Shown: positions 5,218 to 47,762 of the stretch, in pieces
Layout: the number at the start of each line of letters is the position of its first letter
Position numbering within the stretch: the stretch's first letter is position 1
Assembly (NCBI GenBank): GCA_964017185.1
Contig: OZ024879.1
Span: 39,830,383 to 39,894,382, forward strand
DNA: 64,000 nt
Direction: 5' to 3'
Source of the DNA: Rugalucina vietnamica
Lineage: Eukaryota > Mollusca > Bivalvia > Lucinida > Lucinidae
Position numbers and translations under genes: made by a program
The notes under the pieces: model-generated
The model's database searches: none
Seen by the model: only the letters and a program-made list of their open reading frames with translations
Told to the model about the DNA's origin: nothing

Positions 5218-5454
5218 TATCCTCTATGTACATTGTCTTTTGTCATTGACTTTTAGTGGTTTACCTTATATGGTCATGCATGTAGAGAACACTTTAAGAG
5301 GTGGTCAAAACTGACTTCCACATTCTGTCTTCGGGGTTCTAGACCAGATCAAATACAAACGTGTTGTACAATTAGAGAACTCGCATATTTTATTTGGAGA
5401 GAATAAGGGATTCCTCTGTCTATAAATTAAAAAAAACTGAGCTGATCAGCTTCT

Positions 5455-5790
5455 AAAACCGGTTTAAGCCCGCCAGTAACTTTGTGTTACTGATCGTTCC
5501 AAGGCGATACTTCTGTGGTGGTTATTTTTGTTTTGTCTTGGTGTTTAAAATTTTTTGTGCTGTTGGCGCCTTATGTATGTTTTCATATTTTGAATTAAGT
5601 TAAGGTAACTGAGTGGCCACCTATTGGGAAAATAGCTGCTCATTCGGCTTAGGATATGTTTCATGGTATAAGTGCCTGATTGTTAGTTTGGTTTTTTCCC
5701 ACCTCGGTTTTTGGAGTGGGAATCTCTTTCTGATTGCGCCTTTTCCTGATCTTTGCCTACTTGTACCTTTTTCTAAGATCTGTTGATCGG
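5455..5790 (+). mobile_element. Penelope-like 3' region fragment, plus orientation
   Basis: This shares a continuous block with the sequence downstream of the RT frame at 39.0 kb: CTGATCGTTCCAAGGCGATACT, GGTAACTGAGTGGCCACC, GAGTGGGAATCT and a terminal TTGTACCTTTTT. No reverse-transcriptase part is attached on this strand. An A-run follows at 5853-5871. Confidence 0.75.
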
Positions 5791-16986: not shown

Positions 16987-17262
16987 ATTTGTCATTTTCA
17001 GTGACTAAACAAACTTCTACAACTGCTTGCAAAATTTCATTAATCGAGACGTGGTCGAACATTTTGCGTTCTTCTTTATTTGCCACACTCAATGAGCGTC
17101 CCGACTGAACGCCTTCATACAGATGGAAAAAAAAATCTGACTTAGAACTTAAAAGACGGGCTAAATTATGTCTCTGGTCGGGTTCACCTGGAATTAATTA
17201 GTTTTTAGGTCGACGTAACTGCTTCATCACACTGTTTAAATATTGGCTTCTTGAAATTCTTG

Positions 17263-17411
17263 TAAATTCTTGAAATTGCAGCAAAATGTCTGGCTTTCGC
17301 TGCCAGTTTTATAAAGGGTCACCGATGAAGGTTCATTACCCGAAATTGTACAATATGGCCCATCTTCTAGCTTTGTATTTTTACTGCTTCCAAAGGATCT
17401 AACAATTATTT
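17263..17411 (+). repeat. Dispersed ~150-bp repeat with hammerhead-like core, copy 1
   Basis: Nearly identical to 32240-32410 over about 150 bases (CTTGAAATTGCAG, CTGGCTTTCGCTGCCAG hairpin, GGTTCATTACCCGAAA, CTTCCAAAGGATCTAAC). It resembles a retrozyme or Penelope-associated ribozyme region. No tandem partner lies next to it. Confidence 0.65.
17316..17361 (+). ncRNA. Hammerhead-ribozyme-like motif (core substituted)
   Basis: The layout fits a type I hammerhead: stem I GGGTCA pairs with TGGCCC (17356-17361) with no mismatch apart from one wobble; the catalytic box is CCGATGA (17322-17328) instead of CTGATGA; stem II GGT/ACC has a 5-base loop; GAAA is at 17342-17345; mini stem III is TTGTACAA; and the cleavage dinucleotide is TA. 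The changed base in the catalytic box predicts little or no activity. Confidence 0.45.
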
Positions 17412-17759
17412 TTATTCATTAAATCAGAAATAGATAGTTTTTAGGACTAAACTGTTTTTATTATGTATGCCAATAACAAAGTCTCAATATTTCAAGTAGT
17501 TTCTAGATTTCAATTTGGACCGATATGTGATTCACACATTTTAGATTCAATCACTTTTCAGTACCATTGCATCAGAGCGAGACGGTAATTTGGCGGCAAA
17601 TGATAGTTATACTTTGCCAGTGCTTTTATCATGTTAATTTGACATTTATCTAAAGAGCTTCCAAGGAAAAAATCCATTCCATTCGAGAAACGTCTTCTTC
17701 GCTATAGGTTCAGCTTTTTTTTTATATTTTGTCTGTTTAATTTACTTCAACTGGCTTTC

Positions 17760-18080
17760 AATTGGGCATGTCTCTATGATGATATCGGGACGTTGCTTCC
17801 ATATGATAGGACTTCCATCCAAAATTAGGATATCAGGACACTCAAAATGTGCTTGAAATGACAACCACCAAAGGAAACAACTATGGCTTACATGTATGGA
17901 TGTTTTGGCTTACATGTATGGGTGGTTTGACTTGAACTTCTTTTCCGGGAAAGGCTTAGACCTACTTAGCGGCTAAGCAGTAACCAGATGGTCAGCCAGT
18001 TATTTAAAAAACAAAACAAAACGCTTTGTCTGGACGCAAGAGCAGCCCATCTATTTAACACGACCCAAATGGGCGGTACC
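17760..18080 (-). repeat. SINE-like (CAAA)-tailed repeat, full copy
   Basis: Member of the most frequent dispersed family here. Its sense strand starts near CCCATTTGGG, passes through GGGCTGCT, GGTTACTGCTTAG and GCCTTTCCCGG-like blocks, and ends CAACGTCCCGA...GACGTAAAGC followed by a CAAA tail in the best copies. It is antisense here and has no coding capacity. Confidence 0.65.
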
Positions 18081-18771
18081 AATTTTCCCAACCCACCTCC
18101 CATTAAAAAGGTTGTTAGCTAAACCAAGGTGCAGACATATATGCTTATTGAATTCTCTATATTGCGTGGATACGAATGCCATCTAGCAGGCAGAAATTCA
18201 ATTTATAATGGATCAAGTTTCACAATCATGTGACAACTATGATCGTACAATCAGCACAAGAAACAGCCTCTGGAAAGCCGTACAATGAAGCAATCATCCG
18301 AGACGGTTTAGAATTGACAACAACTGAAAGTTGTCGATAAATTCGTCTACCTGGGATGCACACTCGAGGGCAGTGTACATTGTGATGCGGTCACTGCAAG
18401 GATTACAAAGACCAGTGTGATATCGATTTCTCCCACTTGCAATCGGAGAATTTAAATTGGCATAGTCAGCCTTCAAACAACTCACCAAAACAGATGGGCG
18501 GACAAACACTATCAATGTGATCTGCCAGAAACCCCAGAGAAGAACCCATTAACCTCAACTTTATTGCTTGCTCTAGCTGCTACAGCAGTGAGCTGATTTA
18601 TGTATTGGTCAGCTGTGAAGCTTATCAGTTTAGTTACACATTAGTTTGTGTGTAGATTCATTAGGATGAATTTGCTGCATCATTATTACCTGTCTGAAAG
18701 AAACATGTTTCAGGGTTTTCCATACAAAATATATCTTAGCGTTTTTTGTTGTTGTTTTTTTTTTACATATA
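18081..18771. other. Unassigned sequence
   Basis: No gene, tandem repeat or clear inverted repeat was recognised. Confidence 0.35.
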
Positions 18772-18830
18772 TTTTTCATGTCTTGGTGTTTAATTTTTTT
18801 GTACTGTTGGCGCTTTACGTATGTTTTCAT
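18772..18830 (+). mobile_element. Penelope-like 3' region fragment, split by a Helentron-like insertion (left part)
   Basis: TCTTGGTGTTTAATTTTTTT and CTGTTGGCGCTTTACGTATG match the family's 3' region. The match resumes at 20607 with ACTGAGTGGCCACC and continues to about 20785 (TTGTACCTTTTT), so one fragment was interrupted. Confidence 0.75.
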
Positions 18831-20596
18831 TATAGCCCCGCTTTGAAAAAGTGGGGGCTATACTGGATTCACCCTGTCCTTCCGTAGTTCCGTTATTCCG
18901 TTATTCTGTTATTCCGTTATTCCGTCCTTCTGTCCTTCCGTCCTTCCGACATTTTTGTTTCCATTCATTATCTTGAGAATGGCTCGACAGAATCTGACCA
19001 AATTTTGTATGCACATCAACATTGACAAGATCTAGCTTGGGATTGTTACCCGTCATTTTTCGCAAAATTTTGACGGAGTTATGGCCCTTGATTGATGTCA
19101 GAATTTCGTTTCCGCTCAATATCTTGAGAACGAATTGACAGAATCTGACCAAATTTTGTATGCACATCAACATTGACAAGATCTAGCTTGGGATTGTTAC
19201 CCATCGTTTATCGCAAAATTTTGACGGAGTTATGGCCCTTGATTGACGTCAGAATTTCGTTTCCGCTCAATATCTTGAGAATAAATTGACAGAATCGGAC
19301 CAAATTTTGTATGCATATCATCATTGACAAGATCTTGCTTGGGATTGTTACCCGTCATTTTTCGCAAAATTTTGACGGAGTTATGGCCCTTGATTGACGT
19401 CAGAATTTCGTTTCCGCTCAATATCTTGAGAACGAATTGACAGAATCGGACCAAATTTTGTATGCACATCATCATTGACAGGATCTAGCTTGGGATTGTT
19501 ACCCGTCATTTTTCGCAAAATTTTGACGCAGTTATGGCCCTTGATTAACGTCAGAATTTCGTTTCCGCTCAGTATCTTAAGAACGCATTGACAGAATCTG
19601 ACCAAATTTTGTATGCACATCAACATTGACATGATCTAGCTTGGGATTGTTACCTGTTATTATTTGCAAAATTTTGACGGAGTTACGGCCCTTGATTGAC
19701 ATCAGAATTTCGTTTCCGCTCAATATCTTGAGAACAAATTGACAGAATCCGACCAAATTTTGTATGCACATCAACATTGACAAGATCTAGCTTGGGATTG
19801 TTGACCGTCATTTTTCGCAAAATTTTGACGGAGTTATGGCCCTTGATTGACGTCAGAATTTCGTTTCCGCTCAATATCTTGAGAACAAATTGACAGAATC
19901 GGACCAAATTTTGTATGCACATCATCATTGACAAGATCTAGCTTGGGATTGTTACCCGTCATTTTTCGCAAAATTTTGACGGAGTTACGGCCCTTAATTG
20001 ACGTCAGAATTTCGTTTCCGCTCAATATCTTGAGAACGCATTGACAGAATCCGACCAAATTTTGTATGCACATCAACATTGACAAGATCTAGCTTGGGAT
20101 TGTAATTCCCTTCAGTTTTTGTTAAATTTTGACAGAGTTATGGCCCTTAATTAACGTCAGAATTTTGTTTCCGCTCAATATCTTGAGAACGAATTGACAG
20201 AATCCAACCAAATTTTGTATGCACATCAACATTGACAAGATCTGGCTTGGGATTGTTACCCGTCATTTTTCACAAAATTTTGATGGAGTTAACAGCCCTT
20301 GATTGACTTCAGAATTTTGTTTCAGCTCAATATCTTCAGAACGAATTGACAGAATCCGTCTAAATTTTGTATGCACATCATCATTGACAAGATCTAGCTT
20401 TGGATTATTACCGTCATTTTTCGCAAAATTTTGACAGAGAACGAATTGACATAATCAGACCAAATTTTGTATGAGCATCAATATTGATGAGATCTAGCTT
20501 GTGATAGCCTGTGATAGTTACCTGTCATTGTTTTTTTTACACCCTGCAAAAAAAGCTGAGAAGCGGGGCTATAGTCAGATTCTCTGACAATTCTAG
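18831..20596 (+). mobile_element. Helentron-type non-autonomous element with internal 151-bp satellite
   Basis: The left end starts with a small palindrome (ATAGCCCCGC...GGGGGCTAT, 18832-18861). The right end carries the inverted AAGCGGGGCTATAG, then the hairpin GTCAGATTCTCTGAC (20574-20588), then AATTCTAG and a T-run. Subterminal inverted repeats, a central satellite and a 3' hairpin close to the end are the hallmarks of Helentron-associated interspersed elements. The element sits inside a Penelope-like 3' region, which fixes its borders. Confidence 0.75.
18950..20520 (+). repeat. Satellite array, about 10 units of 151 bp
   Basis: GACAAGATCTAGCTTGGG recurs at 19024, 19175, 19326 and onward every 151 bases, with CAAATTTTGTATGCACATCA and TTCGCAAAATTTTGACGGAG in each unit. 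Units are highly alike, decaying towards 20.3-20.5 kb, where a partial unit occurs. The period is not a multiple of three, so the staggered open frames are artefacts. Confidence 0.95.
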
Positions 20597-20606
20597 TTTT
20601 TTTTTT

Positions 20607-20785
20607 AACTGAGTGGCCACCTTTTGGGAAAATAGCTGCTCATTCGGCTTATGATATTTCATGGTATAAGTACCTGATTGTCAGTAGTTTGGTTTTTTCC
20701 ACCTCAGTTTTTGGAGTGGGAATCTTTTTCTGATTGCGCCTTTTCCCGATCTTTGCCTACTTGTACCTTTTTATTTTTATTTTCC
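20607..20785 (+). mobile_element. Penelope-like 3' region fragment (right part)
   Basis: Continuation of the fragment at 18772: ACTGAGTGGCCACC, AATAGCTGCTCATTCGGC, GGAGTGGGAATCT and TTGTACCTTTTT appear in the same order as at 5455 and 47455. Confidence 0.75.
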
Positions 20786-21534
20786 AAAATTTTTATATAT
20801 AATTTTTTAATATTTACAAAATATGGCTTTTGTGGGGTGGGGTGGTGTGAGAAAGATAGGTTCAGAGAAATGTAGATGTAAAGAAATGCGCTAAAACAAA
20901 GATCAGCCTGTCTATCTTGGCAACTGAAACATCGCTTTTCATATTTCTAAATACTTGTATTAGTACATGTACAGTGTATGATGAATGCATGCAAAACATG
21001 GCTATACTATAAACTCACCCTGTGAGCCTATGGCTCAGGTAAGCGAAAATATATCGACAGCGCTAATATGGTTTATTCATGATCTTCGTTATTATTTGGC
21101 TGCCAAAGGATAAATTAGCTTGGATGCTGTATCAACAGCAATATTCTCACCAAGGTGGTACATGTATGTAGTATCGGTATACAGTAAATAATACTAGTGT
21201 CTGGCTTTTTGAATGTTTTGTTTGGCTTGGTCAACAGGGCAAGCCGTCATTATTTGTTTTTATTTCTTGGGGTGTTGGGTGCTTCTCTATCATTGTATGA
21301 GTAAAGGATTATGTTTGCGACTGTTTGCACAAACTACACTTTATACACTGTAGGCATTTTACACTTTATTATCGGCAGTCCGAAATGTGTAATTTTAACC
21401 AAACTGCATTCAAAACTGCCAAAAAACAGGCATTTTAGATTGTTGAAAAGCATGTGTTGGTGTTTTTGTTCGACGATCATCGTTTTGGCAATTCAAAATG
21501 CATTCTTCTTTGATCTACACCAAATAAAATCCAC
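20786..21534. other. Unassigned sequence
   Basis: Contains GTGAGCCTATGGCTCAGGTAAG near 21020, which resembles the terminal palindrome of a mollusc Helentron family and may be a solo end. Nothing else was recognised. Confidence 0.3.
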
Positions 21535-21800
21535 AGGTTCCGCCCTTTGGGACTTTGAAAAATAAATGGGCTGCTTGTGCTTCCCAGGCAAAAGTTATAA
21601 TTTCACACTTGATCACTGTTTACCACTCAGGTCTGAGCCTGCCCAGGAAAAATGAAAACCGTTCATAGATTTTACTTCGCTGGTTGCATTCAAAACATAT
21701 TTGTCATGATATGCCAAATGTTGGGTAGAAGTCCCATAAGGTTACATGACATAACCATAGCTGTTGACTTGGATGTCAAGCAACAATTTCATTGAACAAA
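21535..21800 (+). repeat. SINE-like (CAAA)-tailed repeat, decayed
   Basis: AATGGGCTGCTTGTG, CAGGTCTGAGCCTGCCCAGG and CCATAGCTGTTGACTTGG match the family in order, ending in a weak tail (CATTGAACAAAT). Confidence 0.6.
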
Positions 21801-22237
21801 TAGAAAATAAAGCCCACAAAGTATACTATATACATGGTTTTATTTACATGCAAAAAATTATTATTATTTCACTGATAAGAAAAAAGTCATTTAGACTACA
21901 TTGTATAAATTTGAAGATTAAACCTATATTAAACATGTGCACAAAAGAAGTTAACATTTAAAGATAATGAGCCAAACTTTCAAAAATACAGTTAACTTTT
22001 ATATACAAAATAAAATTAAATGCTTATTTGATAATCCATGTAACTATACAAAACAAGTGTAATATATTGCTTATCCATATTTACATGTATACACATAATT
22101 ATATTATTTATACATTATTTATATATTATTTATATATTATTATTATCATTTTATATACACATATATAATAATAATACAATGCTACATAAACATCACTTTT
22201 TCTATTCAGCTTTTAATTGTTTATCACACTATCCCTG

Positions 22238-23965
22238 TCATTCACTGTCTGAATCATCTGAAGAACTGTCCCCTGAATTATTTACATTTTCAACATCGCT
22301 GTCCAGTTCAATAGGTTCATTGTTTTCTGCAACAGCAATAAGGTGGTCCATGATATCAGAAATAAATGTATAGGTCTTTTTCTTATAACGTTTCTTGCCA
22401 CTGCGACGGCCCATATGGTCTGGTCGAATTCTTTTGTATGTTGATGTATACGGCCTGTCAACATGTTCGTTCCAATCGAGAACGGACAGGTCTCGCCTAA
22501 GTTCATACATTTTGTTTTTATAATGTAATCTCTTGTCCAAGTAGATGAGGCAAACATTGCTGTAACTCTCTATATAGTACGTAGCACGTGCCAAAACAAA
22601 ATCCTGGGCATATCGATATACAGTTTGCTTATGTAAAAAGTCCTGAAGAATTCTTATTGCAGCAGGTGACCTCACAATGTCAAAATTGGGAACATATCCT
22701 TGTTCTTTACATGGTGATTCATCACTACACTGCTGATGATTATTCTGAAAATGCAGAATGCAACTATCCAGCATCTGCCGCAATGTGGCTGCATTACCAT
22801 TGCAGTGTTCCATACTATAATACACATGATTTCGAAACTTAGCCCCTTTATCACTTAGTTCAGGATGCCATGTTCTTCCAATGTTTACACGTGACCCAGA
22901 AGCACTTTTCTTGAAAGCGCTTTTGATCGGCTTAGTTCCGTGCCAAGGATCATTTGAGTTTGTTGTGCCTTGTCTATCTTTGATCTGCTTATTGACGGAT
23001 GAATTTCTGTCGTGTGCATGATCGACAACTATAATGCCATCCCTGTCGAATCCTTCGTACATTTTTGTACAGCCTAAACTTTCATGTTTCTGTGAAGATG
23101 TTTCGTCGCGCTTGGTAATATGTTGCACATCTACTATTTTATGTGTCTTCTGACCAATTGCTATGTGGTCCGAGTGGAAGGAATTTTTCCTGCACGCATG
23201 ACGGGCATCAGTCATAATGGATATACCATTCTCCTGTAGCTTCTTGCTCAATTCCAGCTCTTCTCTTCGCGCTGATGCAATGGAAGATTTCCTTAGCAGT
23301 TCAACAATAGTAGACAAATAAGTGATCACTAGTGCACGGAAACGTGGAGTTGGAATGTTGATTGTTGAAAATTCACAAAACTTTTCATATTGAACAGATG
23401 ACATTCCACTGCATATGTACGCTGCCAACACTTTATAATTCACTTTATAGTTATTTCCACAAACCACAGAAGACTCCCATGTTACTTCATGACTGTTTTC
23501 ACATCGAAGTTTTAGAACAAGAACATGTCCGATCTTTGTGGCAGAAATTAATTGAAGGTCTGAATGACACTGTCTAGCATGATCTGTTACTACCGATGCA
23601 TACTTTTCAGCAGATGTCACGTCTCCGATATAAAGAGTTTCATCCTCAAACTTTTTGCTGGTTTCCACCTTTTCAATATTTGCTTTAGTAGAGTTCACAT
23701 GGTCTTCCTTGTTTTTTCTAAAGTGACACAAATACTGATCCATAAGATTGTACAACATGTCTTTCATTGACAGTTTAACACCCATTGTTTGCTTCACTGA
23801 TTCCAGTTTTGTTTCAAATGCAACTTTCTCAGACTCAAGTTTGAAAATAATATCCAACTGTTTTCTGTAAGTTTTATATTCATACTCCTTTATTGTCCCG
23901 TCACTAAGCCTTTTTCTGTTTTTCTTTCCACGCGGAATACTGTTTGTTATATCCAAGAGAGCCAT
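22238..23965 (-). CDS. DDE transposase-like protein, possibly Kolobok-related (575 residues)
   Basis: Intact frame with a well-placed ATG (AAAATGG on the minus strand). Basic stretches lie at 13-20 and 518-531, and an acidic serine-rich tail at 552-575. The middle has the order expected of a DDE-type nuclease: a TDARHACRK motif (D253) followed by GQKTHKIVDVQ, VVDHAHDRNSSVNK (D315 and D319), a DPWHGTKPIK motif (339-348), an HVYYSMEHCNGN segment (380-391), and IESYSN...DKRLHYKNKMYELR...LDWNEHVDR (E466 onward). D253-D315-E466 is my proposed catalytic triad. From memory the pattern resembles transposases in Kolobok-type elements of invertebrates and fish. No terminal inverted repeats or TTAA duplications were found around the locus, so a domesticated gene is equally possible. 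It is divergent from the zinc-motif gene at 24179. Confidence 0.6.
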   Translation of the reverse strand: MALLDITNSIPRGKKNRKRLSDGTIKEYEYKTYRKQLDIIFKLESEKVAFETKLESVKQTMGVKLSMKDMLYNLMDQYLCHFRKNKEDHVNSTKANIEKVETSKKFEDETLYIGDVTSAEKYASVVTDHARQCHSDLQLISATKIGHVLVLKLRCENSHEVTWESSVVCGNNYKVNYKVLAAYICSGMSSVQYEKFCEFSTINIPTPRFRALVITYLSTIVELLRKSSIASARREELELSKKLQENGISIMTDARHACRKNSFHSDHIAIGQKTHKIVDVQHITKRDETSSQKHESLGCTKMYEGFDRDGIIVVDHAHDRNSSVNKQIKDRQGTTNSNDPWHGTKPIKSAFKKSASGSRVNIGRTWHPELSDKGAKFRNHVYYSMEHCNGNAATLRQMLDSCILHFQNNHQQCSDESPCKEQGYVPNFDIVRSPAAIRILQDFLHKQTVYRYAQDFVLARATYYIESYSNVCLIYLDKRLHYKNKMYELRRDLSVLDWNEHVDRPYTSTYKRIRPDHMGRRSGKKRYKKKTYTFISDIMDHLIAVAENNEPIELDSDVENVNNSGDSSSDDSDSE

Positions 23966-24178
23966 TTTTTCAAAATAACATTCAGATGCCTAGAAATCTA
24001 TTAATCTGACAGCCAGACGTAGAAATCAAAATTTGAATTTCCCACTGCTAGGGTCACATGACTAGATTGGGTCAGTAGAGGGCATATCATATATGCAGCA
24101 TATCTGCTACAGAGTGCAAAAGGTTACAAAGTCCAATGTTCTGTTATGAGAGCATGTTGCAGAATATTACCTGGTACT
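23966..24178. promoter_or_regulatory. Presumed bidirectional promoter between two divergent genes
   Basis: The two start codons face away from each other across 213 bases, so both transcripts must start here or overlap. No TATA box or other defined element was recognised. Confidence 0.4.
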
Positions 24179-24893
24179 ATGGCTATGAAACATGAAATTC
24201 TACTCTCAGTCACCAATGAACAGGAACGTTCAATTATGGAATTATACAGTGAAAAGAGATGGAAATATGCGAACCTAAGTAAGTACTATTTTCGGATATT
24301 TACAACAGATCAGTTACACAAAAATCACAGACATTTTAGATATCTTTTCATAATATACATAACAGATCACTGAAATGTAAGAGGAACAAAATATAAAATA
24401 ATGTTACATTTTACTAGTATACATTAGTGGCTTTTTTTATTTTGCGAGAACAACAAAGTGTAATAACTTTTTACATGCATTTTCCTTTGCAGTGGTAAAT
24501 AGGAAAGCCAAGACACAGAAAAAGAAAAGGAAAAGAGACAGTGATGATTTACGGGGACCATATCAGCCTCCACGAAATGATCCATCAGGCCCCCAACCGA
24601 GTCCACCACCACCACCACCACCACCACCTAACAATGACGACGAAGAGCAAGAAGAATGTCCACTGTGCTTTCTAACTCCATGTGTGACATTTCATAATCA
24701 CTACTGGCTTGGTGACGGACAGCCAGAGAGCAGGGAGAACCATGGTGTTAGAAAAATAAAATACAAGTCCTACTGGAAAGTTATTAACAATTCTGGCGGA
24801 TGGAATGATGAAAGATACTTGCAAAAAAAGGTAGCCGCCGGTGGACCAATAAATGATAAACGTGAACTTATGCCGTCATGCGTAGTTTCTTAG
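24179..24893 (+). CDS. Two-exon zinc-motif protein next to the transposase-like gene (166 residues)
   Basis: Exon 1 is 24179-24278 (ATG with A at -3 and G at +4); the donor GTAAGT starts at 24279. The acceptor TTTCCTTTGCAG ends at 24492; exon 2 is 24493-24893. Splicing removes 214 bases and keeps the frame. The protein has a basic segment (KKKRKR), a polyproline run, an acidic NNDDEEQEE stretch and a Cys motif, CPLCFLTPC (C-x2-C-x4-C), followed by HNHYW and an RKIKYKSYWK...GGWNDERY...RELMPSCVV tail. The conserved-looking tail suggests a functional domain, but I do not recognise a named family. I recall similar small proteins beside invertebrate transposases, so it may be an accessory protein of the same element. 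An AATAAA lies about 90 bases after the stop. Confidence 0.6.
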
Positions 24894-25857
24894 CTTAGAG
24901 CATTGTACCCTAATCCTGTGGACATGCCCTATATGGGTCATATGTGGGTTTGAATATTGCATATAATTCCTATTTGTGAAAATAAAAAATAGAATGGAAT
25001 GATATTTGTTATAATTTAACCAAGTTATATACTGAAACTGTTCCCTCTCTACTTTTCCTCTATTTACTGTATATCAGTGCACTTCATATGCGTCATTGTA
25101 ACAAATGCACTATAAAATTCTATGCATATTTAGCCTAGTAAAGGCATAACCAGTGGTTGTTTAGATCAGATGCATGGATGAGATTCTCTTTCTATCATTG
25201 TAAACAACCAATGCTATGTCTGTACATCTGTTTGTAAAATCCATAAAGGACACCGACTCGTCTGATGTGGTCAATTGTATGCAAGAATTATACATGTATA
25301 GTGAAGAAATAGATATAAAAGGCAGACTATGTCGGCCATTGGACATTCTTTATACATTTATACATCAGAAAACCTGTTTCTTTTATGCAAAGCCATAAAT
25401 GCAGATTAGCTGCACAAAACCACACCGTTGTAAGGCACTCATGTTTTAGTTATATAAAATACTGCTTCCTAAATCCGAAATTTCATGCAATCTCAGTTTT
25501 GCGTTTTGATTGAAACCTCCTAAGACAGTTTTTTTTATCAATATAATGATGGTAATGGCATATATTGGCTAAAATCAAGTTCAGTTGGTTTTCCGATTCT
25601 CTACACACAGTCAGTACAAAATTCCAGGTAAACCTGATAATCTAGTCTGGTCAGTTTGGCAATTAATTCTCCCAGTGGAGCTGAGCAGACAGGTCAGAGG
25701 GCAATTTATCAAATATCTGGGATCTGGTTGATTTTCTTCCTGGGTGAAGAATGTCCCTCTTTAAGTTGATTATTTTACAACCCAAACATATTAGTGAAAA
25801 TGTCAACATGACCAGCTACTCGAATGTTGATGTCAAATAGAGCGATGATTTTCTTTT
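24894..25857. other. 3' flank of the zinc-motif gene and unassigned sequence
   Basis: AATAAA near 24980 is a plausible polyadenylation signal. Beyond it, no repeats or coding signals were recognised. I searched for a mirror of the sequence left of 22238 and found none by eye. Confidence 0.35.
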
Positions 25858-25858
25858 T

Positions 25859-26973
25859 AGCTCGCCTGTACGAAAGTACAGGAAGAGCTATTGCAGTCAC
25901 CCCGGCGTCGGCGTCGGCGTTAGCGTCGGCGTTAGCGTTAGCGTCGGCGTTCCTCAAAATGTTAAAGTTTTTGGTTAAAGTTTTTATGAGTCTATATCTC
26001 TTGAAGTTGTGGATGGATCAAGTTGATACTTTGCATGTTGGTAGATATTGGTCTGAAGTTTTATGCTGTATCATCATGACCTACCTGGATGACCTTGAGG
26101 TCAAGGTCACGGACTTAGAAATTTTGTGTTAAAGTTTTTGGTTAAAGTGTTTATGAGTCTATATCTCTTTAAGTTATGGATGGATCAAGTTGATACTTTG
26201 CATGTTGGTTGATATTGGTCTGAAGTTTTATGCTGTATCATCATGACCTACCTGGATGACCTTAAGGTCAAGGTCACGGACTTAGAAATTTTGTGTTAAA
26301 ATTTTTGGTTATTTTTATAAGTCTATATCTCTTGAAGTTGTTGATGGATCAAGTTGATAATTTGCAGGTTGGTAGATATTGGTCTGACGTTTTATGCTGT
26401 ACCATCATGACCCACCTGGTGACCTTGATGTCAAGGTTACGGACTTAGAAATTTTGCGTTAAAGTTTTTGGTTAAAGTTTTTATAAGTCTATATCTCTTG
26501 GATATGTAGATGGATCAGGTTGATACTTTGCATGTTGTTCGATATTGGTCTGAAGTTTTATGCTGTACCATCATGATCCACATGGGTGACCTTGAGTTCA
26601 AGGTCACATACTTTGAAATTTTATGTTAAAGCTTTTGCTTAAAGTGTTTTGAACTGTATATTGCTGGAACAGATGGATGGATCTAGTTGATACTTTGCTG
26701 TTAGATATTATTCTTAAGTTTTATGCTGTAGCATCTTGACCCACCTGTGGTCAAGGTCACAGACTTAGAAATTTTATGTTATAAGCCTATGTCAAATATG
26801 TAGATGGTTCAAGTGAACTTAGCATGTTGGTAGATATTGGTCTGAAGTTTTATGCTGTACCATCACAACCCACCTGAGTGACACTGAGTTCAATGTCCTT
26901 GGTCATAGATTTTAATAGATTTAGTGACAAAGCACAAGTCAGGCGAGCTACGCTGTCCTGCGACAGCTCTTAT
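25859..26973 (+). mobile_element. Helentron-type element with internal ~166-bp satellite
   Basis: The left end AGCTCGCCTG is mirrored by CAGGCGAGCT at 26940. Just after it comes a 3' hairpin, GCTGTCCTGCGACAGC (26952-26967), followed by TCTTAT. This is the same architecture as 18831-20596 with an unrelated sequence. A GGCGTC/GTTAGC minisatellite lies at 25904-25950. The match to abundant bivalve elements ending GACAGCTCTTGTT is from memory. Confidence 0.75.
25960..26900 (+). repeat. Satellite array, about 6 units of 164-167 bp
   Basis: TCTATATCTC recurs at 25991, 26158, 26322 and 26488, with GATATTGGTCTGAAGTTTTATG and CAAGGTCACGGACTTAG in each unit. Units decay after 26600. Confidence 0.9.
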
Positions 26974-27430
26974 TATAATTACATTGAGTCACACAAATCT
27001 GCTGTGTTTATTCCTGAACTTCAGATTTCATCTTAGATATTTAGAAAATTTAATGATATCAAATCAGTATCTATCTACTAAATGTGATAATATATCCTGG
27101 TTTTCTCGTGTTAGATTAATCTTGGAAATAGAGGAAACAGTTACTCGTAGTTCAATTAGAATTTTTACTTTGACACAAGGTAATGCCGAAGTCGTCTTAT
27201 ATGAAAGTTTCTTCTATGCACAAGTTGGTTTTCGATGCTCTAACAGCTTATGGTTCAAAAAACGTCATCATTTTTTTTATCATAAGGTGAGCCATGACTA
27301 AGGGATCTGCTTAGCTCGAAATATGACTAACATAGCGTGAAATTCCGTTTCATTTTGTAGATCACTTAACAAATGCATCAGAAGTTTAAAAATATGCAAC
27401 GTGTTTTGCATAGTTACGTATTTTTATGTT
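26974..27430. other. Unassigned sequence
   Basis: Plus-strand open frame 26924-27301 lacks protein-like composition and begins inside the preceding element. Nothing else was recognised. Confidence 0.3.
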
Positions 27431-27434
27431 TGAT

Positions 27435-27765
27435 TTATTTGAATTGAAGCTTAACGTCGCATCAGATATGGTCATGTCGGGACGTTGCTTACATTTTATG
27501 GGTCTTTTGCCTAAAATTAGGATGTCATGACATTCAAAACTACTTCAATTATATACCCAAGTAAGTCACTAAGGATTATATGTATGAATGATTTGATTTA
27601 AACCAATTTTTCTGGGCAGGCTCAGTCCCGAGCGGTTCACCAGTAATCAAATGGTCAGTTTCAGTAAAATATTAGCTTTGCCTGGAGGCAGAAGCAGTCC
27701 ATCTATTTCGTTAGGCTCAAATGAGCGGGGCACAATATTCCCACCCGATCACATATTCCTATAGT
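27435..27765 (-). repeat. SINE-like (CAAA)-tailed repeat, full copy
   Basis: Complement of the family from tail (TTTGATTTATTTGAATTG...) through GTCGGGACGTTGC, CTGGGCAGGCTCAG, GCCTGGAGGCA and CCATCTATTTCG. Confidence 0.7.
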
Positions 27766-27834
27766 GTTACAGTAACAACAGAAAAAGGTCAAAGTAACCT
27801 ATTATTTGCTTTGCTGGGCTTATTTTTTTATATA

Positions 27835-28003
27835 TATTACTGATCGTTCCAAGGCGATACTTCTGTGGTGATTCTTATTGTTTTATGTCTTGGTGTTTAA
27901 AATTTTTTGTGCTGTTGGCGCCTTATGTATTTTATCATATTTATGTTAAGTTTAGGTAACTGAGTGTCCATGTTTTTATGCTATAAGTACCTGATTGTTA
28001 AAG
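27835..28003 (+). mobile_element. Penelope-like 3' region fragment
   Basis: ACTGATCGTTCCAAGGCGAT, CTGTTGGCGCCTTATGTAT and GGTAACTGAGTG match the family, with a deletion after 27965. Confidence 0.7.
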
Positions 28004-28384
28004 AAAACATGCAACATGAGTATATTTTTGCGGTGGGACCACCAAGGCATTCGCAGTAAACTATATTTGCTTTGTTCGGCGAATGCGACGCACTTTTATA
28101 TGACATAACATGTAACCTTTATTCATGGCTATAAAACAATCCAGATGTGTCGTTAATGCAGCGTTTATTATTAGTATTAGCATTAAAGTTACAACTATAT
28201 CAAATCCAGATTTTCAATATGAAGGCCCATGCGTGATAAACCAATGGAATCACCAGTGCGGTCAGCACGTTTGATCCAGGCCAGCTATGGGTAATCATTT
28301 GAGTACGGATACTGGCTTTTCTACTCATGAAATGTAGAGCAAAGACATCTGGATATCCCAAATGACCCTTTGCATTATGTAAAT
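28004..28384. other. Unassigned sequence
   Basis: No repeat or coding signal was recognised. Confidence 0.3.
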
Positions 28385-28695
28385 ACTCCCATTGGGGCCT
28401 AAAGAAATAGATGGGCTGCTTGTGCCTCCAGGAGAAGCTTGTTCGCTGCTGACTGACCATCTGATTACTGGTAAACCGCTCATGTCTGAACTTGCCCAGG
28501 AAAAGTGGTTTCAAGTCAAACCGTTCACACATATAAGCCTTTGTGGCTTTGTTGGATGGTTGTATTTTAAGCACTTGGTGGATGTCATGACATCCTCATT
28601 GTAGGTAAAAGTCCAATAAAGTGGAGGCAACGTCCCGACATGACCTGAGCTGTTGACTGGGACGTAAAGCATCAATTTAAACAAACCAGTGTAAT
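28385..28695 (+). repeat. SINE-like (CAAA)-tailed repeat, full sense copy
   Basis: Runs from CCCATTGGGGCCTAAAG through GGGCTGCTTGTGCCTCC, GAACTTGCCCAGGAAAAG and GGAGGCAACGTCCCGACATG to GACGTAAAGCATCAATTT with an AAACAAACC tail. One of the best copies for defining the family. Confidence 0.7.
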
Positions 28696-28993
28696 TTACA
28701 GATTATTCCACCTCGTCAACAGTTTATGTTTCGAATAAGTATGGTTAAAAAAAAGTATGGTTATCCTGATGCTTATCTGTAAGCACAAATGGTTCGGTGC
28801 TTTTGCCAAGCACCTTTACCATCGTTTGCACCTCAACAACTAATCTAAAGAGAATAAAATAATACGACGTGAGAACCAACATAAGGAAGATAAGTATGGA
28901 AGGTCCAGAAATTGAAGTAATTAAGTCTAAAATCCTAACCAAAACACCGGACTGGAAGGAAAGGACAGCACAATAACAGAACACAACATATTT

Positions 28994-29214
28994 GAGCCGC
29001 CGCATCAGAAAACCAACGAACTGCATATGCGAAAACAAAGATCAGTAACTGCGAAGCTGGGTCAGCGCCTTTGTTTTCGCCTACACGGATAGTAAAATTC
29101 CTTTTCTTTCTAAATCTAAATTTCAAGCTTCTAACCTTCTTCTGTGTTGGTACAGTCCGGTTTGTGTCGGACCTGTTCGTAACCGAGATTGTCGGTATTC
29201 TCATACACAGGCTC
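28994..29214. mobile_element. W4 MITE family, copy d (221 bp)
   Basis: Flanked by ATTT at 28990-28993 and 29215-29218. GAGCCGCCGCATCAG to ACACAGGCTC; the internal palindrome is partly deleted. It has a counterpart, copy f, at the matching point of the segmental duplication. Confidence 0.8.
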
Positions 29215-29883
29215 ATTTAAATGAAAGCGATATAACTAGTTCTTTTCTGTTTAGGTAGTTATTTTGCTTGCATCAACCCTAATAACAGAAAAAAATGACA
29301 GTAGAACCGCATTGGAACGTGTCGAACATTGTTTCAAACTCGGCCACCAGACACATAGAAAGGCTTAGATTATGGAATTGTTTGTTATTATCCTCGGTTA
29401 ATCGAAAGTCTACTGAGGTCTCGAGAATATATGCTAATGGTCGTTTTTGTCAAACTAAGCAGATAATGTCGCAAGGCTCATTTTGTATTCAAATTCACTT
29501 ATTCTGTCATTAAGTTGTCGTTTATATAGACGCAAATATATTCCACATAAAGAACTTGCGTAACTTGATGGAATTAACGATATTATTACAATGGCGTAAC
29601 AGTTATCTGACCAGTTTTATTCGCAGTATCAGAAAATTAATCTTTCGTTTTACAATTAATTGGTTCCAGCTCTTTTTAAAATATACATGCACTCCTGATT
29701 TCATTCTGACGGTCGATTGCTATTCATTTTTTTTTTTTTGCAGATAGTGACAATTCGCAGAATGATATTTAGGGGAAAAATGTAAAATTGTCAATTAACT
29801 GTTTTCCAAGAAATCTGGAAATACTGCAGTTATACAATTACCCCCATAGCGACCAAAAATGGTCCTCTTTTGTGTGCTTATTC

Positions 29884-30205
29884 GTCTGAGTGTATCGTGA
29901 GATGTACGTAGCACATCGCATCGTGATGAACGTGTAGAAACGTATCTACGCGCAGTGGATCGTGTAAAATCGTGAACCCTTATCGTGATGATCGTTTCCG
30001 CACGTACTCAATCCTAGCTGATCGCCCAGCTATCTGGTAATCAATCGTGACTTTATCGCATCAAATCGAAACAAATCGCATCAGCAAGTATGAAATAGCA
30101 TCATCTCGAAACTCGTAAACATCCAGAGAAGTTCCACGATTCGATGCGATTGGCCAATCGTGATGACCGCAACGGATCGCGTGCTAGTCTGAAAGCTGCA
30201 TAATA
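29884..30205. repeat. Region enriched in ATCGTGA-like motifs
   Basis: More than ten variants of ATCGTGA or TCGCATC occur on both strands within 320 bases, absent from the matching part of the other duplication arm. It is probably an inserted MITE with an expanded internal motif; the ends are not resolved. Confidence 0.4.
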
Positions 30206-30548
30206 GAAATTGAAAATGAAATCACCACAATGTGTTTGTAGTGATATGGTGGTATGTGGCGGTATATATATATCATTTATTTAATGTCGCAGTTAAATGT
30301 CGATATTTGGATAGTTGCGCAATACCTGGCCAATATTGTCTGGTCTTAATTGCATTGTCTTTTCAACACACGCAACACGCAACATGCTGTGCTAATTCCT
30401 CACTACAGAGAAAATCGGGGAACTGAGATTAATAATATTGAATTCCAATCTGCTAACTGTATCAATTTATCATTATATAATTTTACGAGTGGTATACGAA
30501 AATGAGCCTATCAGGTTTGATATAAACACATTGTGTAGTCACAACGTA

Positions 30549-31564
30549 CGTGGCTTGTCCCAAAAGTCCCGTTACACATGCAATTTATTCTGAACGCATA
30601 GCAGGAACCAACAACAGTTACTCATGCAGAATAATTGGCCATATTGGAACTTATTTTAGTGTGCAAAATGATACTCTCTTCAATGACCTCACTGCTACAG
30701 TTACCTTGGTTACCATAAGTAGGCATGACCGGAGCAAGTCAAATTATGCAAAATGTTTTCTTAATTTGTATTTTTCGCAATCTGCTAAATCAACATAGGT
30801 GTAATGTGATCATTATGAAAAATATACAAGCCTAACAACTATTGTATGCTCATCATTTAGTGATAATGTCATGAAATTTGAGAACGATTTGATAGTTTGA
30901 GAGACATATAAAGAAGCTTACCTATAAATATTCAACGACAAAATTAGGACGTCGGCAAAAACATGCGGAGCAAAAATACAGGGTCGTTACATTTAAACAT
31001 CTAAAATATGTTCTTTAATGGAAACCAAGCAAATGTTCAGCTTCATATTACTTGGTGACTTCATTACTATAACACAACACCTACTTTTAAAATGATATAT
31101 CATCTAACAGTAATATTACTTGACCTAATGAAACATGGACAGTAGTTAACAGTGGATAGCATTTGGTTAATTATTCTTATTTTGCATGGTTGATCTTTAT
31201 AGCATTATTTTGACGATTTGCTTATAAATGTTTTACTCAGATTTCTAAATATATGCTACAGTATTGTTTAGCTAAATATAAATCTAATTTTGAAACTGAT
31301 TGTTTTGTTTGTAGTGTATATTTCCAAACGGCAAAATATTAAGGAAAAATCAAAATTATGGCAACGTCATTAGACCTGCTCCGTTGAAGTAGGGGAACAA
31401 GGGTTCAGACCTCCACTGCGTTTTAACAAATGCACGTAGAAGTACGAAAATTTGCCCCCAAAGCCCTTAGATATAGTACTTAGTGATCATAAGTGTTGTA
31501 AGCCCTGACGTGCTGTTATTGTGGCAAAACATTGAGTGTAATGGAACTTTTGGGACAACCCTCG
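30549..31564. mobile_element. Mariner-like 1016-bp element with TA duplication
   Basis: The 29-bp ends are inverted with four differences (CTTGTCCCAAAAGT / GGTTGTCCCAAAAGT cores). TA flanks both sides (30547-30548, 31565-31566). The other duplication arm retains the uninterrupted site at 44309-44310. A CGAGGG...CCCAAAAG terminus is typical of mariner. There is no intact transposase. Confidence 0.8.
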
Positions 31565-31869
31565 TATGTGCAGCATGCTTGGCATTTCAGATTAAGGAGT
31601 TGTGATTTGAGGCGAAACTTAAGGCGTCTATCCTACTCACACAGTTTAAAAACCTGCGCTTATTTATTAACATTCGTTTATATTTTGAATGAGTCTCAAT
31701 AATTTAAAGTGATATTTCAAATGCAATTGAACGTATTCTTGCGTAGAAATGCGAAATATAAAACATGTGTGTAAACTGGAGAATAGAAAGTAATGAAAAT
31801 TTCAAAAGATGCACACAACTTTATTCATTGTAAGATGAAAAACGTGAAATAACAAATTTGTTTGAATTT

Positions 31870-31990
31870 ATTAGGATTTTAGATCCCAGTCAAGAGATAT
31901 ATGGTTCTGTCGGGACGTTGCGCCCATTTCACGGGACCTTTGCCCAATATTGGGATGTCCTTATAGTGAAAGGTGCATTTAAACTACCAA
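31870..31990 (-). repeat. SINE-like repeat, 3' end fragment
   Basis: TCGGGACGTTGC, CATTTCACGGGACC and GTGAAAGGTGCATTTAAACT match the family's 3' half on the complement. Confidence 0.55.
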
Positions 31991-32239
31991 CAGTAAACAA
32001 CTAAACTGTTTCTGTATTTTATTTGCTATTACTGCAGCTGGTGTTGTGCCGTGTGGCGGCCCTAAAAAGTCTCCCCGTACATCATCCATAGTGCAGATTA
32101 TATTTTTCTTTTGATCCTTTGAGATCGGTGAAGATATTTGGAGTATTTCAAATATATTGTACGTTAAGAATCATCATATTATCAGAATTTTGAATATTTT
32201 GCCCCTTTGGGAATATAAGTCTTTGATTTAGACTATACT
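31991..32239. other. Unassigned sequence
   Basis: Nothing was recognised; absent from the other duplication arm. Confidence 0.3.
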
Positions 32240-32410
32240 GGTGAAAATTCTTGAAATTGCAGCCATCATGAATGTCTGGCTTTCGCTGCCAGTTTTGTAA
32301 AGGGTCACTGATGAAGGTTCATTACCCGAAATTGTACAATATTGCCCACCTCTCTTTGAATGTTTTCACTGCTTCCAAAGGATCTAACAATTATATTTTA
32401 TCTGTATAGT
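32240..32410 (+). repeat. Dispersed ~150-bp repeat with hammerhead-like core, copy 2
   Basis: Second copy of the repeat at 17263-17411. It sits just upstream of the SINE-like repeat that received the L1 insertion. Confidence 0.65.
32302..32347 (+). ncRNA. Hammerhead-ribozyme-like motif (intact catalytic boxes)
   Basis: Stem I GGGTCA pairs with TTGCCC (32342-32347) with one C-U mismatch; CTGATGA is at 32308-32314; stem II is GGT/ACC with an A-C apposition at its base; GAAA is at 32328-32331; mini stem III is TTGTACAA; and the cleavage site is TA (32340-32341). Both invariant boxes are intact. Type I hammerheads with very short stem III are known in Penelope-like elements and animal retrozymes. 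The weak stem II base is the main doubt. Confidence 0.5.
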
Positions 32411-38380: not shown

Positions 38381-40270
38381 ATTCTGCATAAAAAGGTACA
38401 AGTAGGCAAAGATCAGGAAAAGGCGCAATCAGAAAAAGATTCCCACTCCAAAAACCGAGGTGGGAAAAAACCAAACTAACAATCAGGTACTTATACCATG
38501 AAACATATCGTAAGCCGAATGAGCAGCTATTTTCCCAATAGGTGGCCACTCAGTTACCTTAACTTAACTAAAAATATGAAAACATACATAAGGCGCCAAC
38601 AGCACAAAAAATTTTAAACACCAAGACATAAAACAAAAAGAACCACTACAGAAGTATCGACTTGGAACGATCAGCAACACAAAGTTACCGGCGGGCCCAA
38701 ACCGGTTTTACAGGTACCTAACCTCACCCTCAGCTTCTGCAGTGGTTCACAACATTTAGTTAGTTCTTCGGTCCTCGTGGTGAATCTCTAACTAGTCAAT
38801 GAATCATCAAGAACAAACAAATAAATCATGATAAACATCCTGATGAATCAAAAACCAGGACTCACAGATTAAGTAAGCTGCCCGACGATGGAGATCCCTG
38901 GGCGCCGAATAACCTACTAACTCCGGAGCAAAAGAAAAACACCAGTTGGACCCCGGTGGGCCAAGCAACAGACAAGAAGCTCCGGCCCCAACCAACTAAA
39001 ATGAATAGCTTTAAGTCGGGGCCATCATAGAGTCTGACGCCCGACCCACCGGCGTGCAATTAAAGAAGGCAGCATAGTTATCAACCATGATTGGGTTAAA
39101 AACTAAGCATGCAGACTGTCGCATAACATTCAAGTTATAACCTATACGTCTGTAACGTGATATGATTTTTCCGAACTGAAGAGAAAAATCAGTTATTCCT
39201 TTAAGTTTCTTTAATTTGTAAACCAAGTCACCATAAAATTCAGGTTCCGAAAGGCCCTCACTTAAAAGTGTCTTTAACCCAACATTATATTTGGAAATCA
39301 ATTCATAGTGTCTACGATAAAATTTAGAAAAGGTTTTTCGAAGTTTATGATACCGATAGCCCTGTTGGAGAAGTTTTGCCGTTAAACATTTATTTCGAGC
39401 GTTGAAGTCTGTAACATGATTGCAGACTCTAGCAAACCTAATAAGTTGCGAAATGTATACACCATAAGAAGCACGACGAGGAACGTCACCATCCAAAAAA
39501 GGAAAATTTACTATATCAAAATCAAAGTCATCGCGCTTATCATAAATTTTAGAAGAAACAAATCCATTTGCAACAGAAAGATGTAGATCTAAAAAGGGGG
39601 CTTCGGTATCTGAGATATTAGCTTTGTTCAACTGAAGTTCAGGTGGATAAATTTGATTGACCATACCTTCAAAATAAGGGTTGTCAATGTTCAAAAGGTC
39701 ATCGAGGTACCTAGATGTGGAATTAAAAGCCTCGATAACATCAGCTTGATTATCATGGTTAAGAGAATCCATGAAATCTCTTTCGTAGCAGTATAAAAAT
39801 AAATCAGCTACGAGAGGTGCGCAATTTGTACCCATCGGAATTCCAACAATTTGTCTGTATAACTTGGTCCCAAATCTAATATAAATATTATCAAGGAGAT
39901 AGGATAAGGCGTCGCACACATTCTGACATGACCAAAGGGTATACCGACTTTGGTCAGAGGAAGTGAAAAAAGCCTTTCTATCATTACATGCCAAATAAAG
40001 TGAACCATAGTTTTTTAATGCCCTTTTGAAGGTCCACTCTATCAAATCCAGAAGTTTTTCTTTAATTAGATTATGTGGTAATGTTGTATACAGAGTAGAA
40101 AAATCATATGTGGACAAGCTTGTCGCACGGAACCCTCTACACTTCAATTTACTGAGCACCTCACCAGAATTTTTTATTGACCAAAACCAATTTTTATTTG
40201 AAGTTTCATACACTGTCTCACAGTATCTTATAACATGAGATTTGATAGCAGTAAGACAAGAAGTTAATAA
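38381..40270 (-). mobile_element. Penelope-like element, 5'-truncated
   Basis: Minus-strand RT frame (39011-40270) plus a 630-bp 3' region ending with TTGTACCTTTTT. This 3' region is the source of at least six solo fragments in the window (5455, 18772/20607, 27835, 47455, 63347, and the inverted piece at 6130). Confidence 0.75.
39011..40270 (-). CDS. Penelope-like reverse transcriptase, partial (419 residues)
   Basis: Frame open from a stop at 40271 to TAA at 39011, without a native start. RT motifs are STYDFSTLYTTLPH (D56), GIPMGTNCAPLVADLFLYCYE (142-162) and RYLDDLLNID (catalytic D190, D191). KRDDFDFDIVNFPF and YGVYISQLIRFAR follow, and the end is ACLVFNPIMVDNYAAFF. The fingers region and anything N-terminal are missing. 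No GIY-YIG endonuclease follows the RT; in the permuted Naiad/Chlamys-type Penelope relatives the nuclease lies N-terminal, which would fit the truncation seen here. Assignment to Penelope-like elements is inference from motif style. The frame is undamaged, so the copy is young. Confidence 0.7.
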   Translation of the reverse strand, partial: LLTSCLTAIKSHVIRYCETVYETSNKNWFWSIKNSGEVLSKLKCRGFRATSLSTYDFSTLYTTLPHNLIKEKLLDLIEWTFKRALKNYGSLYLACNDRKAFFTSSDQSRYTLWSCQNVCDALSYLLDNIYIRFGTKLYRQIVGIPMGTNCAPLVADLFLYCYERDFMDSLNHDNQADVIEAFNSTSRYLDDLLNIDNPYFEGMVNQIYPPELQLNKANISDTEAPFLDLHLSVANGFVSSKIYDKRDDFDFDIVNFPFLDGDVPRRASYGVYISQLIRFARVCNHVTDFNARNKCLTAKLLQQGYRYHKLRKTFSKFYRRHYELISKYNVGLKTLLSEGLSEPEFYGDLVYKLKKLKGITDFSLQFGKIISRYRRIGYNLNVMRQSACLVFNPIMVDNYAAFFNCTPVGRASDSMMAPT

Positions 40271-40547
40271 TTAAAGGCGTTATGTACAATTGCACATTTC
40301 TTCATTCTAGGCACCTGTTGACTTACTATATCTATTAATTAACGATTGAAATTCAGATTTTAGCTTTCACTGGGTGATGAAACACATTAGGCTGTTTTAA
40401 TGTCTGAAAAGGGGACAGAGTCGAAATTACAGTAGGCCGTCTATTTGTCGGAAGTTTTCCCTATTATGTAAGATACCACAACCATATCAATTAAATATTG
40501 ATGAAATAGGGTATTTATGAATTGAATTACATTTAAACCATACTGCA

Positions 40548-46742: not shown

Positions 46743-47454
46743 ACTTGACTATTACACAACTTCAAAATACTTGCACTGATTTGATTTTTATTCTGGCAGA
46801 GGTAGATGTATACAAGATCTTCTATATCAGTATTTCTTTCTTTGGTGTGCTAGTTTTAAAATTTTGAGTGGTTTTATGAAATGGTGTGTAAGAAATAAAA
46901 CAGCTGAAAAAAGGCTTAAATTGGCGATTATCAAGTTGTTGGTTCTCTCGTATATGCGCTCTTACCTATGCTTTTCTTTCTTTTATTCGAAAATATTAGA
47001 AAATTATATGTTGTTTGAAAATACAAGAAAAAGTTTGAATCTACAAATATGGTTTTGATACATTTATAAATATTGTTTTTTTTTCCGACTTTTCAAGTTA
47101 GAGGGTAGGGTTGTTACACGAGTCCAAAAAATTGACTTCCACTTCAAGATGAAAATTTATGTATGTTTTAGGCCCAACATAGTCAGTGTTACTAAAACAA
47201 AATGACTTTTGAAGTCATTTGTTGTGAATTGTTTGTCCAGGAATGTATATTTGAAAGAATTGAAAATTAAAATAATATATTTAATTTTCAAACATTTTGT
47301 TTAGAGGTGTCATTTAGAGGCCTGTAGCTTGAAAAAATGCACACTACCCTATATTTATTTTGTTTTCATATGTCTTATCTTATATTTTGGAATCAAAACA
47401 GAGCGGCTAGGAAAAAAGTTTGAATACTTTTTCATTGGCAGCGAACATCCTTAA
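46743..47454. other. Unassigned sequence between RT fragment and 3' region
   Basis: No family match was seen; it probably includes an insertion or highly diverged 3' RT sequence. Confidence 0.3.
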
Positions 47455-47762
47455 GCCCGCCAGTAATTTTGAATAACTGATCGTTCCAAGGCGATACTTC
47501 TGTGGTGGTTCTTATTGTTTTATGTTTGGGTGTTTAACTTTTTTGTGCTGTTGGTGTCTAATGTATGTTATCATATTTTAGATAAGTTTAGGTAACTGAG
47601 TGGCCACCTATTGGGAATAGAGCTGCTCATTCGGCTTACGATATGTTTTCATGGTATAAGTACCTGATTGTTAATTAAGTTTTTTTCCACCTGGGTTTTT
47701 GGAGTGGAAATCTTTTTCTGATTGCGCCTTTTCCTGATCGTTGCATACTTGTACCATATTAT
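47455..47762 (+). mobile_element. Penelope-like 3' region fragment
   Basis: AAGCCCGCCAGTAA, GATCGTTCCAAGGCGATACT, GAGTGGCCACCTATTGGG and GATTGCGCCTTTTCCTGATC, ending TTGTACC. Confidence 0.75.

Follow-up and report, generated by a model that had tools for sequence, protein, structure and literature searches.

Two 46-base motifs resembling the hammerhead ribozyme, found in a stretch of 64,000 nucleotides (nt) from the genome of the lucinid clam Rugalucina vietnamica (contig OZ024879.1, positions 39,830,383 to 39,894,382; this whole stretch is referred to below as the window), raise the question of which kind of element they belong to and how that element is copied. The original prediction placed both motifs exactly at the positions given in Table 1, and this observation is confirmed, with both on the forward strand; a 27-mer that they share occurs twice in the window, against 0 occurrences expected from 100 shuffles. 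Both motifs are copies of a very abundant non-LTR (long terminal repeat) retrozyme, whose unit of 371 to 378 bp includes a type I hammerhead. We consider it probable that RNA of this retrozyme, in circular or multilap form, is copied by the reverse transcriptase (RT) of a Penelope-like element, by way of a 41-nt stem-loop that the two elements have in common.

The motifs had been described as two dispersed copies within a shared repeat of ~150 bp. The repeat is indeed shared, and its size was understated: the copies are pieces of 156 bp and 390 bp of the 371- to 378-bp unit. Nor are there only two of them. A search of the genome (1.09 Gb in 47 contigs, including the window), with the common 27-mer as the query and up to 3 mismatches allowed, returned 4260 + 4585 places (8,845), many of them spaced 371 to 378 bp apart, as units in tandem. 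A sample of 50 merged regions (226 kb) was taken from contig C1 and the window, and natural units, defined from cleavage site to cleavage site, served as rulers to delimit retrozyme segments, of which 64 were obtained.

Reading the sequence bears out the individual features noted earlier, namely, the altered first core box of the 17.3-kb copy, the single stem I mismatch beside intact core boxes in the 32.3-kb copy (Table 1), the minimal stem III TTGTACAA, the TA cleavage site, and the A-C apposition at the base of stem II. Stem II of both hammerheads is GGTTCATTACC, at positions 17330-17340 and 32316-32326. The two defects, which had been seen as complementary, are 2 of 38 distinct variants in the sample; they look like ordinary decay of two copies, and joint action of the copies is not indicated. 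Forms with an intact core and a paired stem I do exist: one 46-mer in which both core boxes are intact and stem I is fully paired (including one G-U pair) has 751 + 769 = 1,520 exact occurrences genome-wide, and among 74 sampled hammerheads the core is intact in 57 and combined with a fully paired stem I in 49. CUGAUGA and GAAA boxes, a UH cleavage site, and helices I to III in order, open at helix I, are all present, as expected of type I. A sister family with GGGCTA/TAGTCC and a G-C pair at the stem II base accounts for 1,140 places within 3 mismatches of its own query.

For the analysis of covariation, 40 distinct hammerhead sequences were aligned; of the original 46, 6 were left out for having one unrelated half. 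In this alignment, 91.5% of the cells are paired by the structure, compared to 19 to 48% when the structure is slid along. None of 500 shuffles, which do not preserve the relatedness of the sequences, reached the covariation score (0.143, versus 0.106 after shuffling) or the number of cells changed on both sides (14 versus 3.7); only 3 pairs show a change on both sides, a number that 274 of 500 shuffles reach. Covariation in stem I is found at pair 5, which is C-G in 30 sequences, U-A in 6, U-G in 1, and unpaired in 3. The stem II base, whose A-C apposition had been called unusual, is unpaired in 28 of the 40, its commonest state, with G-C (10) and A-U (2) in sister families. The center of the stem III palindrome, U-A in 34 sequences and C-G in 6, is broken in none, a pattern consistent with the pairing of two ribozymes that is seen in newts. 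The intact copies, the stem I covariation, and the tandem units support the assignment of the motif to type I hammerheads of the retrozyme or Penelope-associated kind, with cleavage predicted from the sequence. A search with the Rfam hammerhead model gave no match in the window at the gathering score, none at an E value of ≤10 in a 251-base stretch surrounding either copy, and none for a trimer of the sister family with the canonical G-C at the stem II base. Other weak Rfam matches (small RNA, small nucleolar RNA, and twister-P1 at 20 bits in locus L082) were taken as chance. For the isolated 46-mer in its commonest form, the minimum-energy fold is a competing one and not the hammerhead (z, 0.15).

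The insertions share one end. In 39 of the 64 segments the 3' end falls at unit positions 61 to 63, and in 52 it falls at positions 57 to 69, within the sequence TTTTTAT ~62 nt downstream of the cleavage site. The same fixed end is found in 23 of 26 members of a subset chosen only by the hammerhead 27-mer (one array being counted by its last piece). The retrozyme tail is GGATCTAACAATTATTTTTATT, and 38 of 48 readable tails have TTTTATT at the fixed end. The 5' ends are scattered; lengths range between 39 and 889 nt, and each of two arrays comprises about four laps. None of the 54 anchored copies begins between unit positions 54 and 101; elsewhere, the 5' ends form small clusters, none of them a peak that would mark a transcription start. 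The fixed 3' end, together with the scattered 5' ends, points to retroposition that begins at one fixed position, ~62 nt beyond the ribozyme site, and yields copies truncated at the 5' end. Since 50 of the 54 anchored copies cross the cleavage site, a linear unit cut at the hammerhead cannot be the template; the templates span this site, as circles or uncut multimers, and are copied from one internal position. In 14 of the 18 multi-lap insertions, the laps of one insertion are closer to each other than to the best match among the other insertions of this set; in 3, the two comparisons differ by no more than 0.01%, and in 1 the outside match is the closer one. This pattern fits either a circle or a homogeneous array.

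What links this start site to a second element is a block of 41 bases, GTTGTGCCGTGTGGCGGCCCTAAAAAGTCTCCCCGTACATC, which is found without a mismatch in the Penelope-like element (loci L082, L085, and L093) and apart from which no stretch matches significantly between the two elements (E value of 7e-17 for the block; next best, 0.12). In eight natural laps of the retrozyme, the first 60 columns from the 41-mer on are 97 to 100% identical, with overall pairwise identity down to 72%. A 40-mer of the block has 3734 + 3643 places in the genome within 2 mismatches. Its context was analyzed at 51 places, all on contig C1: 11 places, one of them picked for lying at a known Penelope-like copy, comprise 9 retrozymes and 2 Penelope-like elements, and 40 further places, drawn from the listed exact matches, comprise 25 retrozymes, 14 Penelope-like elements, and 1 that our rule left unclassified and that is retrozyme-like on the left. 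As many insertions contain the block, it must have been present in the copied RNA. The block itself also occurs in short tandem repeats (locus L122, C1:21411007-21411226). In IMG/VR contigs, no exact 35-mer match to the 41-mer was found.

The position of the block relative to the fixed 3' end is equal in both elements. Among 40 matches to the Penelope-like element that come to an end, 33 stop at ruler positions 393 to 401, in TTGTACCTTTTTAT, and the 41-mer begins at position 415, i.e., 14 to 22 nt past the fixed end. In the retrozyme, the ends at unit positions 61 to 63 and the start of the 41-mer at 81 leave a gap of 18 to 20 nt; in retrozyme family c, the 41-mer starts at 86 and the ends lie near 67. 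The start sites of both elements read TTTTTAT, with TATTTTAT in some retrozymes. In both, the predicted fold of the 41-mer is closed by a stem formed from unrelated flanks, which pair as CUGCA/UGCAG in the retrozyme and as AGAGU/GCUCU in the Penelope-like element. When only the flanks were shuffled, an equal or better fold was obtained in 47 of 2,000 cases for the retrozyme and in 4 of 2,000 for the Penelope-like element.

This candidate partner is represented in the window by a 1.9-kb piece and several shorter fragments; in two tandem loci, the full element recurs with a period of 4228 or 4569 bp. Its frame has three in-frame stops, all of them TGA, one at a Cys position (VYVLTU), and a final TAA. 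The frame is followed by a selenocysteine insertion sequence (SECIS; Rfam SECIS_1), which passes the gathering score in the window (Table 1) and scores 31.5 bits, below that threshold, in L082. Upstream of the putative RT, a 104-amino-acid (aa) piece with TGA read as selenocysteine matches the GIY-YIG domain (PF01541) at 28.3 bits (cut-off, 22.6); without the selenocysteine reading, the match stands at 0.0059, below the cut-off, and on the whole 1101-aa reading the domain is not listed. Judging from these features, the Penelope-like transposon appears to encode a selenoprotein. Its family must have been active very recently, as the 419-aa piece from the window, with 34,298 first-look candidates, is matched at 100% printed identity and without stops at all 100 scored places. 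A simple pattern search of the Penelope-like element in L082 found no hammerhead, and a single-sequence structure prediction of the RT piece (mean predicted local distance difference test score, 36) was discarded. In locus L081 (C2:9996500-10004500), a nearly identical Penelope-like copy and a retrozyme trimer lie 260 bp apart, with older, inverted Penelope-like pieces close to the trimer.

Table 1. Retrozyme and Penelope-like features of the window
Feature	Positions	Strand	Description
Retrozyme copy 1	17261..17416	+	156 bp; 5'-truncated; ends at the fixed 3' end; without the 41-base block; BLAST match to unit b 277..61, 96.2%
Retrozyme copy 2	32015..32404	+	390 bp; one full lap plus ~11 nt; same fixed 3' end; BLAST match to unit a 53..441 of the doubled 378-nt ruler, 95.1%
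Type I hammerhead, copy 1	17316..17361	+	First core box CCGATGA; cleavage predicted between 17355 and 17356, by homology with aligned hammerheads
Type I hammerhead, copy 2	32302..32347	+	Core intact; one C-U mismatch in stem I; cleavage predicted between 32341 and 32342
Fixed 3' end (reverse-transcription start), copy 1	17404..17416	+	AATTATTTTTATT; from sampled 3' ends and tails
Fixed 3' end region, copy 2	32385..32404	+	AACAATTATATTTTAT..; from sampled unit ends and tails
41-base block, copy 2	32043..32083	+	100% over 41 nt with that of the Penelope-like element; downstream of the reverse-transcription start in circular order; predicted fold
Penelope-like element, 3' part	38388..40272	-	1.9 kb, 5'-truncated; open reading frame; RT motifs by eye YDFSTLY, GIPMGTNCAP, YLDD; ends in TTGTACCTTTTTAT; 99.4% to the full element in L093
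SECIS of the Penelope-like element	38969..39036	-	Rfam RF00031, 39 bits (gathering, 35); at the end of the RT frame
Penelope-like 3' fragment	5454..5775	+	With fixed 3' end
Penelope-like 3' fragment	47451..47762	+	With fixed 3' end

A 1.5-kb satellite built of 151-bp units (18953-20439) lies between two further Penelope-like pieces, at 18774-18830 and 20606-20774. As these pieces are consecutive in element coordinates (3981-4038 and 4058-4226), the satellite seems to lie inside the 3' region of a single copy. Other satellites in the window are found at 25960-26747 (unit of ~167 bp) and 48759-50842 (unit of ~187 bp). A long interspersed nuclear element (LINE) sharing the retrozyme tail was rejected as a partner: places of the 28-mer tail on contig C1, compared by eye, largely coincide with hammerhead places, which leaves room for a shorter shared tail. 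Long LINE-type RT frames are present at 9099-11819 (reverse strand) and 32550-35360 (forward strand), the latter starting ~150 bp after retrozyme copy 2.

A mechanism of the following kind would fit these observations. Tandem or full-lap copies of the retrozyme would be transcribed, and the hammerheads would cut the RNA to units that are then ligated to circles, by analogy with the mussel, Mytilus galloprovincialis, for which such processing of retrozyme RNA has been described (PMC7229834). The Penelope-like element, with its GIY-YIG domain, RT motifs, in-frame TGA codons, and SECIS, would be the source of the RT; its protein may recognize the 41-nt stem-loop common to both RNAs, and copying would then start at the U-run UUUUUAU, ~14 to 22 nt upstream of the stem-loop. 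A linear unit cut at the hammerhead could yield at most ~62 nt of cDNA, since the signal would lie 3' of the start site; a circle or an uncut multimer would carry both the start site and the signal, and one or more whole laps would be possible. In the lizard Penelope-like element PAc (Anolis), reverse transcription is reported to start internally at +111-118 and to require RNA up to +172 (PMC11167929). The lizard element thus needs ~54 to 61 nt of RNA past the start, and the retrozyme 41-mer ends ~59 nt past it, which is why we read the block as a probable RNA signal. Because such a signal would follow the start and belong to the next unit, RNA would have to be circular or multimeric to present the two together, which would give the hammerhead a purpose. 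We propose tentatively that reverse transcription is signaled, from the 3' side of its start, by the 41-base stem-loop, a portable module that retrozymes took from the selenoprotein-encoding Penelope-like element, and that the hammerhead-made circle puts this signal in cis with the whole unit. If so, animal retrozymes would gain a sequence-level partner, and the ribozyme would gain a reason to exist.

Several results weigh against copying by the Penelope-like RT through a shared stem-loop. When whole sequences are shuffled, 19 of 200 shuffles are as stable as the retrozyme stretch (z, -1.33) and 27 of 200 are as stable as the 41-mer alone (z, -1.02); the Penelope-like stretch reaches a z of -3.08. 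The closing stem is present in two of the three circular folds of natural units, so that the structural evidence is moderate. The sequences of the two elements just before the start site resemble each other no more than expected by chance in two of three units, with a marginal result in the third (22 of 300 shuffles). Target-site duplications are weak, with 7 of 52 insertions above the 95% control level and 2 above the 99% level. Searches of Pfam, NCBIfam, and PDB with the Penelope-like RT returned no match, its motifs being recognized by eye only. Finally, the 41-mer contains a TATA-like CTAAAAAG, and the 5' ends of 4 of the 54 anchored copies fall at unit positions 119 to 126, just past the 41-mer.

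A further point on this side is that the template may be a linear, uncut multimeric transcript of genomic arrays, which would make the hammerhead and the circles dispensable for transposition. The scattering of the 5' ends, with no sharp peak, would suit such a transcript. The mutual resemblance of laps within most multi-lap insertions speaks for circles, but a homogeneous array would look alike, and the observation is indecisive; mussel retrozymes accumulate as circles (PMC7229834). We regard the uncut transcript as a rather unlikely template, and a circle as the more plausible one.

The main rival concerns the block itself, which could be a core promoter shared at the DNA level, with the unit beginning at the promoter and the retrozyme perhaps copied by some other enzyme. 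The TATA-like sequence and the 5' ends just past the block would be expected in this case, and in the Penelope-like element the 41-mer precedes the open reading frame (ORF) by ~240 nt (in L093, it is at 436 and the ORF runs from 720). However, 41 contiguous identical bases are long for a core promoter, the predicted stem is closed by unrelated flanks in both elements, many insertions contain the block (among the 40 sampled places, 14 Penelope-like and 25 retrozyme), and a promoter leaves unexplained why both elements have a fixed start at an equal upstream offset. We consider a shared promoter unlikely and favor an RNA signal used by the Penelope-like RT.

We find it very unlikely that the unit resembles a short interspersed nuclear element (SINE), transcribed by RNA polymerase III (Pol III), with the T-run as the terminator and a LINE copying the RNA from its end. 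There is a run of T4 to T5 at the 3' end, and the stem II sequence resembles the consensus of the Pol III B box. However, the preferred 5' end expected of a SINE is lacking, ATT follows the T-run in 38 of 48 copies, units in arrays run through the T-run, and the same T-run is found at the 3' end of the 4.2- to 4.6-kb Penelope-like element. As for a chance look-alike of the hammerhead in an unrelated repeat, the missing Rfam match, the non-hammerhead minimum-energy fold, and the ease with which shuffles reach three doubly changed pairs would allow it, but it is hardly credible: in thousands of copies the core boxes and every helix keep their register, no shuffle reached the covariation score or the number of doubly changed cells, both of which lie far above those of slid structures, and the unit size and tandem habit are those of published retrozymes.

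Animal non-LTR retrozymes are already known, and the element described here fits their published description. In the mussel, ~5000 type I hammerheads are reported in repeats of 350 to 390 bp, and Penelope-like elements are already suspected to be helpers of animal non-LTR retrozymes (PMC7229834). A 2020 review stated that the repeats of metazoan non-LTR retrozymes lack any conserved motif from which the autonomous partner could be recognized (PMC7761336). The 41-base block, placed in both elements at an equal distance from the fixed 3' end, is a motif of the kind that this review found lacking, and in the literature, surveyed mostly by titles, we found no paper tying retrozymes to a particular Penelope-like element. 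The shared block would offer a reason why retrozymes need circular or multimeric RNA. It also makes the question of partnership directly testable with one protein and two RNAs and predicts that the retrozymes of other animals carry a comparable module in common with local Penelope-like elements.

Among Penelope-like elements, the candidate partner presumably fits the Naiad clade, which, in work attributed to Craig et al. in 2021, reportedly encodes selenoproteins in clams. The likeness extends to the GIY-YIG domain N-terminal to the putative RT, several in-frame TGA codons with a SECIS, a very high copy number, and, by the simple pattern search of L082, the lack of a hammerhead; to our knowledge, no link between Naiad and retrozymes has been drawn.

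Compared by description, the non-LTR retrozymes of M. galloprovincialis are closely similar to the clam element: they have a type I hammerhead without the classical loop contacts, two similar families, tandem units of ~350 to 390 bp, thousands of copies, low GC content, and no LTR, primer-binding site, or polypurine tract. They differ in that neither a fixed internal 3' end nor a signal in common with an autonomous element is reported in the portion of their account used here (PMC7229834). The retrozymes of the newt and the axolotl also have a very short stem III with a palindromic loop and a mismatch at the stem II base, U-U there versus A-C here; their unit is 330 to 350 bp with a different sequence, and their hammerheads work better as dimers (PMC7229834). 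PAc of Anolis shares with the clam retrozyme the fixed internal start of reverse transcription, the need, proposed for the retrozyme, for RNA 3' of the start, the tail signature, and the tandem copies, but it is autonomous and has its own hammerhead, and its start, by calculation from the published positions, lies 85 to 92 nt beyond the hammerhead site, whereas in the non-coding element described here this distance is ~62 nt (PMC11167929).

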